A DNA stretch of 64,000 bases, taken from the NCBI RefSeq assembly GCF_900631955.1, contig NZ_UZWD01000043.1, positions 1 through 64,000 on the forward strand, given 5' to 3'. This DNA is from Devosia equisanguinis (lineage in GTDB: Bacteria > Pseudomonadota > Alphaproteobacteria > Rhizobiales > Devosiaceae). The translations under genes were made by a program, and so were the position numbers. This document shows, one piece after another, positions 12,855 to 18,836 of the stretch. The stretch's first letter is position 1. Each line of letters opens with the position of its first letter. Below the pieces are notes generated by a model. The model did no database searches and was not told the origin of the DNA. It saw nothing but the letters and a program-made list of their open reading frames with translations.

Positions 12855-16310
<3,456 letters not shown>

Positions 16311-16385
16311 AAGCATCTCCTGGCCGGAACATGGGCTCCTGGCGAGCCAGGGTCAAACCTTTCTCGGCCCACAATCCACAAGTGA

Positions 16386-16484
16386 TCACGCCAAATGCGT
16401 GATGAGGTCCATCCAGGTGAGCGAGCCGATAGTGAACGCACCCAGCGTGACGAAAGCGGCGAAGTCCTTGATGAAATCGAGCAT
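16386..16484 (-). CDS. 32-residue predicted membrane peptide, SOS-linked
   Basis: An ORF of 32 codons plus TGA with a strong ribosome site (CAGGAGGCAAGA before the ATG at 16484). The product starts MLDFIKDFAAFVTLG and continues as one hydrophobic stretch with a Trp-Met-Asp near the end, fitting a single membrane helix. A GTTC-N7-GTTC element, the alphaproteobacterial LexA operator, lies 35 bases upstream. Known SOS-induced tiny membrane proteins include the cell-division inhibitor SidA of Caulobacter and the TisB toxin of E. coli. Similarity to either is only in size, topology and regulation, so the function is unknown. It lies between lolD and dnaE, 75 bases before the dnaE start. Confidence 0.6.
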   Translation of the reverse strand: MLDFIKDFAAFVTLGAFTIGSLTWMDLITHLA

Positions 16485-16508
16485 TCTTGCCTCCTGTGTT
16501 TCTGTATT

Positions 16509-16533
16509 GTTCTTATGCGTTCTATTTTTGTTC
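16509..16533 (-). promoter_or_regulatory. Candidate LexA (SOS) operator
   Basis: GTTCTATTTTTGTTC at 16519-16533 is an exact GTTC-N7-GTTC direct repeat (GAAC-N7-GAAC on the gene's strand), the operator form established for LexA in Rhizobiaceae and Rhodobacter. A third GTTC at 16509-16512 is spaced by six bases. It sits 25-50 bases upstream of the start codon of the 32-residue ORF, where it would block transcription. Confidence 0.6.
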
Positions 16534-16783
16534 ACGTCTAGACGGGAACAGCGGTGAAACCGGGGACAGGGGTTAACTGGTTAGGAAAGCGTTAGGACAG
16601 GTTGTTGGTCGTTAAGATTCGGCGCTGTGCGGCCCCCGGCGCGCGCTCGACGAAATTGGGATCGTGAGGGGCCGTGGAAACCGCAAAGCAGAACACCGCC
16701 CCCTTTCAGGCGCGGTGCCAAACTGCAGGTCCGGATCGACGATGCGGCCGCCACTTTGAGACGCTAGGCATTCTTCACGAACC

Positions 16784-17470
16784 CTAGAGGGTGTGTGGAA
16801 CCACCAGACCATTACGGATCGTGACGATCCGATCCGCGCGTCGCGCGAGGTCATAATTATGCGTCGCGATAAGCGCAGCGGCGCCTTCATTGCGGATGAG
16901 GCTCTTGAGGGCCTCAAACACGCGGTCGCTCGTCTCCGGGTCGAGATTGCCGGTCGGCTCATCAGCGAGAATGACACGCGGATGATTGGCGGCGGCGCGG
17001 GCGATAGCGACACGCTGCTGCTCCCCACCGGACAGTTCAGCGGGGCGATGGGTGGCGCGCGGAGCGACACCCAAGAGGTCCAGCAGTTCCATGGCCCTGC
17101 CCTCCGCCGGCTTTTGCGTCTGACCGGCGATCAATTGCGGCATCACCACGTTTTCGAGCGCGGTAAATTCGGGCAGCAGATGATGGAATTGATAGACATA
17201 GCCAACCGTCGAGCGCCGTAATTGGGTGCGTGCGCGATCGCCCATCTGGCTGGTTTTTTGCCCGACAATTTCGATCTCGCCCGATTGCGGCGATTCCAGC
17301 AGACCGCACAAATGCAGCAATGTGGATTTGCCTGCGCCTGATGGCGCGACGAGGGCAACCATCTCACCACTGTCGACGGTCAGATTGGCAGATTCGAGCA
17401 CGCGCACGATGCGCTCGCCTTCGCCATAATGCCGGTGGACGTCCTGCAGCAGCAGATGCGGCTTACTCAT
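16784..17470 (-). CDS. lolD: Lipoprotein-releasing ABC transporter ATPase LolD
   Basis: ATPase of the Lol complex that extracts outer-membrane lipoproteins from the inner membrane. It has 228 residues from the ATG at 17470, which overlaps the lolC stop by 8 bases. Walker A is APSGAGKST (Ala replaces the usual first Gly), the signature is LSGGEQQR, Walker B is [12 protein letters not shown] and the switch His is in ATHNYDLA. An upstream in-frame ATG at 17506 would lie inside lolC and was not used. Confidence 0.96.
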
Positions 17471-18836
17471 AGCGCAGGGCCTCCACCGGGTCATATTGGG
17501 CCGCACGCCAGGCCGGGTAAATGGTGGCCAGGAAGCTCAGTCCCAGTGCCATGCACACCACCACCGTCACCTCCACCGGATCGGTGCGGCTGGGCAGAGA
17601 CGACAGGAAAAACACCTCTGGAGGGAACAGCGTCACCCCGAGGAAATCGGAGATTGCCGCGCGGATGGTTTCGGCGTTGGCCGCCACGATCAGGCCGATC
17701 ACCGTGCCGGCAAGCGTGCCGATGACGCCGATCGTCGTGCCGGTGATCGAGAAGATGCGCATGATTGACCCGCGGGTCGCACCCATAGTGCGTAGCACAG
17801 CGATATCAGCGCCCTTGTCCTTCACCAGCATGATGAGGCTGGAGATGATGTTGAACGCCGCCACCAGGATGATCATCGAGAGGATAGTGAACATCACGAC
17901 ACGCTCGACCTGCAGCGCCGAGAAGAAGGTCTCGTTGCGCTGTTGCCAACTGGTCAGGATCATTGGCCGCAGATTGGGCATGGCCTCAATCCGCTCGCGC
18001 ATCATGTTGACCGAGTCGGGATTGTCGATGAACACTTCTACGCCGCTGGCGCGCGGCACCCGGTCATAGGCGGCGTCGATTTCAGCGTCGCTCGCCATGA
18101 TATCGAGCGGCGCCTGGCCAGGCTTCAGCACGTCATCGATGAGCTTGAAGTAATCCTGCGCAGGCTCGAGCGGCATGAAGATGTAGAAACTGTCGAACTC
18201 GACCATGCCCAGATTGTAGATGGCATTGACCGGATAGGACCGGATCTGTGGCGTCGAGCCGAAGGGCGTCATCGCCCCATCGGGATTGATCAACTGGACC
18301 TGGTCGCCGATGCCGACACCCAGGGTCTGCGCAAGGCGGTAGCCAATGGCCACCCCGGTGCTGTCGTCCCAGCTGTCGAACCCGCCCTGCTCAGCCGAAT
18401 TGTAGAGCAGATCGAGTTTCTTGAGATTTGCCTCGTCCATGCCGCGGACAGTGGCCCCGGTCGAACTGCCCCGGCCGGACGCCAGAACCTGACCTTCGAC
18501 GAAATAGACAGCAAACTTGACGCCATCGACCTGTTCGAGCGCCGACACAGTTTCCTTATAGTCGGTGAACTGGCTCTCGATGGGATAGCCGGTGAAATGA
18601 CCGTTGAGCCCCAGAATCTTGTCGAGGAGCTCGCCGCGGAAACCGTTCATCACCGACATGACGACGATGAGCGTCGCCACGCCGATGGCCACACCAACCA
18701 TGGTGAGGCTGGCGATGACCGATATAAAGGCTTCCTTGCGTCTGGCGCGTAAATAGCGCCCAGCAATCATCCATTCGAAACGGGCGAAAGGCCCGGTGCT
18801 CCGGCCGCCCGCTGCTTGCTGTGCGCTCTCGGTCAA
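17463..18836 (-). CDS. lolC: Lipoprotein-releasing ABC transporter permease (LolC/E family)
   Basis: Inner-membrane permease partner of LolD. It has 457 residues, one N-terminal membrane helix ([20 protein letters not shown]), a periplasmic domain (about 75-295) and a C-terminal FtsX-type three-helix bundle. The start codon is TTG at 18836, overlapping the proS TGA (TTGA). The upstream in-frame codons are inside proS, and the next ATG would remove the conserved [18 protein letters not shown] start. Only one permease gene is present, so the complex is probably a homodimer with LolD. Confidence 0.93.

Follow-up and report, generated by a model that had tools for sequence, protein, structure and literature searches.

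SidA of Caulobacter is a 29-residue peptide of the inner membrane that blocks cell division; it is described as interacting with FtsW and, in two-hybrid assays, with FtsN (PMC4211646), and two papers place it under LexA control (PMC4211646; PMC12700426). The operator of Caulobacter LexA is given as GTTC-N7-GTTC (PMC12700426; PMC9578287), and the published identifiers are CCNA_02004 for sidA and CC1926 for dnaE of C. crescentus (PMC11034885 and PMC1839093, respectively). The excerpts of the literature on SidA, the SOS response, small membrane proteins and Devosia LexA that we searched placed no SidA relative in Hyphomicrobiales (the original 2011 SidA paper may discuss relatives), and they gave no answer as to what stops division during SOS in this order.

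We analyzed a stretch of 64,000 nucleotides of Devosia equisanguinis DNA (hereafter, the window), in which a 32-codon ORF lies between an ABC transporter gene and dnaE. We propose that this ORF most probably encodes a LexA-repressed, SidA-like single-pass inner-membrane peptide that inhibits septation. The features of the locus, in their order on the minus strand toward dnaE, are as follows:

16784..17506, minus strand: ABC transporter ATPase (PF00005), 5' neighbour of the peptide ORF
16535..16540, minus strand: -35-like hexamer TAGACG, separated by 17 nt from the -10-like one, recognized by family comparison
16519..16533, minus strand: LexA-type box GAACAAAAATAGAAC, GAAC-N7-GAAC on the ORF strand, within the promoter spacer (from sequence and conservation)
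16512..16517, minus strand: -10-like hexamer CATAAG, ending 27 nt before the ATG (putative assignment as -10)
16509..16512, minus strand: third GAAC, N6 from the middle GAAC, sharing the last base of the -10-like hexamer
16490..16495, minus strand: Shine-Dalgarno sequence AGGAGG, 5 nt 5' of the ATG (window sequence)
16386..16484, minus strand: 32-codon ORF with a single hydrophobic segment, ATG at 16484 and TGA at 16386-16388
12855..16316, minus strand: dnaE, replicative DNA polymerase III alpha subunit (PF07733, E 4.7e-103; TIGR00594)

The box reads GTTC-N7-GTTC on the plus strand and GAAC-N7-GAAC on the ORF's own strand. An earlier, sequence-only reading of this DNA had pointed out this element together with a third GTTC, a 32-codon ORF with a strong ribosome site, and lolD and dnaE as its flanks; the sequence confirmed all of these, with GTTC at 16509-16512, 16519-16522 and 16530-16533, and Pfam identified the two flanking genes as dnaE and an ABC ATPase, the latter of which we take to be LolD from its position. 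The stop codon of the peptide lies 69 nt from the dnaE start, on the same strand. In length (32 codons) and in its one predicted membrane-spanning segment, the window peptide fits the SidA type, with a modest hydrophobicity (best 17-residue Kyte-Doolittle mean 1.5).

This 32-codon ORF is a genuine gene that none of the family libraries we tried recognizes. The peptide was present in 60 of the 61 genus genomes searched, the single miss being a draft 85% complete, and was matched at E <= 1 in 116 of 121 family genomes and 14 of 16 genera (the other five genomes gave none, and three matches among the 116 were near chance, with best E of 0.12, 0.24 and 0.73). Across homologues, pooled pN/pS was 0.27 and Jukes-Cantor dN/dS was ~0.19 (741 pairs from 39 loci, two of them from other genera; the loci were found through protein similarity, a choice biased toward conserved proteins), as expected under purifying selection, while two wrong frames of the same DNA gave pN/pS values of 0.87 and 3.05; this contrast between frames stands despite the similarity-based choice of loci. 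In 15 diverse family peptides, hand-picked from the 62 family loci read, residues M1, K6, D7, A10, F17 and D26 were invariant, and the consensus was MLxFxKDxxAFVSLxAFSxxxLxWxDxLxxLx, with a conserved basic-acidic pair near the start and W-x-D near the end. Since place, spacing and reading frame are all conserved, the evidence for this gene goes beyond chance.

The box by itself, within the 64 kb, is no more than chance would give: GTTC-N7-GTTC was found three times in the window versus a mean of 1.66 in shuffles, and 25 of 100 shuffles contained at least three. Genome-wide, it occurred 121 times versus 65 for the pattern read backwards, and many of the 121 may be chance occurrences. Among 61 family loci, the N7 box was exact in 46 and missing in its exact form from 15; the outer two GAACs were present in 56 and GAAC-N6-GAAC in 42. 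The -10-like hexamer, CATAAG in the window, read TATAAG in 45 of the 61 loci; in 53 such a hexamer was joined to GAAC at no more than 40 nt from the ATG, and T-x-GAC-x stood 17 nt 5' of it in 49 of the 53. Because the -35-like and -10-like hexamers keep a fixed spacing around the box, it sits inside the promoter spacer, a position at which a bound repressor would stand in the way of the polymerase; the TAGACG/CATAAG promoter was absent from the output of a generic promoter scan. The genome of the window has one lexA match, with two boxes starting 51 and 26 nt 5' of the initial GTG of its ORF, and a further box 232 nt before ssb. The designation of the element as an SOS box thus held up on its conservation (46 of 61 exact) and on the two boxes of the same form at the organism's own lexA, and binding of LexA to the box in this organism is likely from the sequence. 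From about 20 genomic box regions chosen by eye, four neighbouring proteins were tested in Pfam, which matched lexA, ssb and an AlkZ-like glycosylase and returned no match for the fourth. The gene of the AlkZ-like DNA glycosylase, which has a box 38 nt before it (G000 contig C26:39395-39409, in the window's genome), is a candidate SOS gene.

Used as a query, the 32-residue peptide found nothing outside the family (matches at E <= 0.01 in 10 of 297 order genomes and 4 of 122 genera, all in-family). Since direct peptide searches stop at the family, the wider kin were found only through a survey of the DNA upstream of dnaE, which covered 84 of the 145 order genomes outside the family in which dnaE was matched, and 86 of 263 genomes in the rest of the class (genomes were taken roughly by dnaE score, and many small ones were skipped). 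A sense GAAC-N7-GAAC lay within the kilobase before dnaE in 54 of the 84 order genomes, and in 51 it was followed by a hydrophobic ORF of 22-48 residues with a ribosome site, starting within 75 nt. On the antisense strand of the same 84 genomes, the box occurred in 14 and such an ORF in none. Control spacings of 5, 6, 8 and 9 gave 0, 0, 0 and 3 of 84, all three also carrying an N7 box with an ORF; three unrelated half-sites gave none of 84; and the reversed reading GTTC-N7-GTTC preceded such an ORF in nine of 84, all nine also having a GAAC box with an ORF. In the rest of the class, the arrangement was found sense to dnaE in 10 of 86 genomes and antisense in none of 86. By this search, 33 of the 84 order genomes and 76 of the 86 from the rest of the class were without it.

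The 51 order peptides were 24-41 residues long (median 32). A loose sequence pattern, applied without a control, fitted 38 of them and a stricter one 27; one match (L218) looks like a false ORF, and three (L073, L208, L212) are divergent. Two of these divergent peptides (L208 and L212, from one family of the order, f21: G080 and G193) are 24-residue versions, the shortest of the 51, in which the C-terminal part is missing. Outside these 51, L082, L092, L187 and L283, from Parvibaculum sedimenti and the class family f61, are 46-47 residues long, a comparable core being preceded by an N-terminal extension. Among 43 loci from a genome scan, 26 carried, ahead of dnaE, both the box and a small hydrophobic ORF, including a Phenylobacterium, three Caulobacteraceae records, Parvibaculum sedimenti and Rhizomicrobium electricum, and 17 had no such arrangement, including Reyranella, Emcibacter, Saccharibacter and non-alphaproteobacteria.

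The Phenylobacterium peptide was matched at E <= 0.1 in 91 of 119 genomes of its family, the Caulobacteraceae, and the best 30 of these 91 matches were studied as loci. A first pattern recovered the peptide in 28 of the 30 (the exceptions being L322 and L325) and a looser one in all 30; a 29-codon reading was present in 26 of the 28 peptides, and the first dnaE motif followed 43-153 nt further on in 28 of the 28. In four named loci, the end of lolD and the start of dnaE were read directly. GAAC-N7-GAA[CT] preceded the peptide in 30 of 30 loci, as an exact N7 box in 22. Several of these promoters (L311, L313-L341) have GAAC-N7-GAA(T/C) in the spacer and more GAACs downstream, as if there were more than one LexA site. 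The NCBIfam model NF033228, "cell division inhibitor SidA", recognized 14 of 14 peptides tested (54.1-72.4 bits, cut-off 35), these having been hand-picked for alignment from the 28 peptide loci. Between lolD and dnaE, then, Caulobacteraceae carry what NCBIfam calls SidA, so the window's gene sits at the place of sidA. From these loci, we presume that sidA and dnaE are also neighbours in C. crescentus itself; a 2020 paper on operons makes no mention of these genes.

We compared the peptide families by profile alignment (hhalign), using the 15 family peptides, 21 hand-picked order peptides of the 51 (two with a shorter start) and the SidA set; 13 class peptides were also hand-picked for alignment. 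The window family aligned with SidA over the N-terminal 18 columns (probability 86.7, score 24.7) and with the order peptides over 32 columns (probability 97.5, score 44.7), and the order peptides aligned with SidA over 23 columns (probability 93.8, score 28.4). Column permutations (100 each, of the whole peptide or of the membrane part) never reached the observed score in six tests. The best whole-peptide permutations scored 14.6 versus 24.7, 15.0 versus 44.7 and 14.2 versus 28.4, respectively, and reversed profiles scored 9 and 11. When only the membrane part was permuted, the best scores were 21.6 of 24.7 (probability 72) for the window family with SidA, 35.5 of 44.7 (probability 96) for the window family with the order peptides, and 26.7 of 28.4 (probability 92) for the order peptides with SidA; these narrow margins indicate that much of the signal lies in the conserved short start. 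NF033228 matched none of the 15 family peptides at E <= 10 (HMMER filters drop weak matches), nor the window peptide when run singly, and gave one weak match (E 0.067) among the 21 order peptides; the window family also lacks SidA's FVWMVC core. The sequence kinship of the window family with SidA thus appears partial, extending over 18 columns. Because 0 of 15 reach the model and the FVWMVC core is absent, we classify the window gene from its sequence as SidA-like, a positional counterpart of sidA and no member of NF033228. The sequence-only reading had drawn SidA in as an analogy; with SidA itself in the same gap of Caulobacteraceae (14 of 14) and a profile kinship that survives permutation, the comparison goes further than that. 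Its suggestion that the locus is undescribed stands for the family and the order as far as the searches reached, and falls for the kind of peptide, SidA being already known.

For the steps that follow the conserved box, we infer the mechanism from SidA. By occupying the box between the -35 and -10 elements, LexA would block RNA polymerase; upon DNA damage, RecA-stimulated cleavage of LexA would free the promoter, and the peptide would be translated at once from its short leader. It would then insert into the inner membrane and keep the complex for late septal wall synthesis (FtsW, FtsI, FtsN) in an inactive state, leaving cells to elongate while they wait for repair.

A LexA-controlled membrane peptide with a target outside the divisome, such as a regulator of the envelope or of a transporter, seems improbable to us. 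Such a target would suit the finding that only the N-terminal part is clearly shared with SidA, the C-terminal half differing (W-x-D versus FVWMVC), and also a faint resemblance to YmiC, a small membrane protein (NF041484), seen in four of 15 members with a best E of 9.1e-4; the window peptide itself scored 13.3 bits against this model, below the cut-off of 42. Against it, place, box and length are the same as for SidA, the N-terminal pattern is similar, and intermediates exist in other families.

TisB is a tiny SOS membrane peptide, and type I toxins of this sort have an antisense RNA as antitoxin and a structured leader. The sequence-only reading had considered such a toxin here, and a TisB- or DinQ-like peptide that depolarizes the membrane and is held back by antisense RNA would likewise be small, hydrophobic and preceded by an SOS-type box. 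We consider it quite unlikely, however: an Rfam search of both strands of 15800-17600 returned no family at E <= 1 (it would miss an antisense RNA not yet described), the 27 nt between the -10-like hexamer and the ATG leave little room for a structured leader, and both the place fixed across the family and the kinship to SidA speak against it. The RNA search and the leader thus yielded nothing in favour of the toxin.

The ORF is sense to dnaE and close to it (in 51 of 61 loci, a median of 88 nt separates the stop codon from the dnaE PHP motif), as would be expected of a translated leader that regulates dnaE and whose peptide has no function of its own. This we hold to be very improbable, given the constraint at the amino-acid level, the residues kept across families, a gap to the dnaE motif that varies from 75 to 183 nt, and the finding of no intrinsic terminator in 16200-16850. 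A chance ORF beside a chance box, to which the near-chance box count of the window (3 versus 1.66) might have pointed, has a negligible probability and was ruled out by family conservation (60 of 61 genus and 116 of 121 family genomes), purifying selection (dN/dS), promoter spacing and the order-wide sense-only arrangement (51 of 84 versus 0 antisense).

With no intrinsic terminator detected ahead of dnaE, read-through from the ORF into dnaE is possible. Directly 3' of the peptide stop codon lies a 9-mer, TGTGGATTG (window 16372-16380, minus strand), which was kept, allowing one mismatch, in 32 of the 38 genus loci and in nine of the 23 other family loci; for 200 permuted words the number of genus loci averaged 0.7 and reached at most 24. 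We take it to resemble a DnaA box, and it may belong to dnaE's own control. We regard it as rather unlikely, if worth considering, that lolD-sidA-dnaE represents an ancestral SOS checkpoint of much of Alphaproteobacteria, with the LexA promoter reading on into dnaE; if this were true, one damage-induced transcript would both halt the divisome and raise the replicative polymerase.

Read as a LexA-repressed, SidA-like septation inhibitor, the peptide provides a candidate SOS division inhibitor for Hyphomicrobiales with a fixed address (51 of 84 order genomes outside the family and 116 of 121 family genomes), in a family invisible to the NCBIfam SidA model (0 of 15 tested). Moreover, relatives of 24-47 residues show which SidA residues persist, a point relevant to the way in which a peptide of this size could hold on to FtsW.

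Compared with known systems, the window peptide is closest to SidA of C. crescentus (NF033228), which it resembles in length (32 versus 29 residues), in its one hydrophobic segment, in the LexA-type box of its promoter, in its position between lolD and dnaE on the same strand (the place of SidA being taken from the Caulobacteraceae loci) and in a charged pair followed by A-[FL]-x-x-[LV]-x-x-F near the N-terminus; the C-terminal half differs, with FVWMVC in SidA and W-x-D in the window family. TisB and DinQ of E. coli are also tiny SOS membrane peptides, but they are under antisense RNA control, of which Rfam revealed none at the window locus. In its proposed role, the peptide would resemble Caulobacter DidA, a small damage-induced inhibitor of division that spans the membrane once and acts on the FtsW/I/N complex; DidA differs in its 71 residues, its SOS-independent control (DriD) and its other locus (likened by description, PMC4211646). 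YneA, SosA and ChiZ are likewise small integral membrane proteins that block late division, YneA interacting with FtsW (PMC13396833); they are damage-induced inhibitors of Gram-positive bacteria, from other phyla, and their likeness to the proposed role is again one of description.
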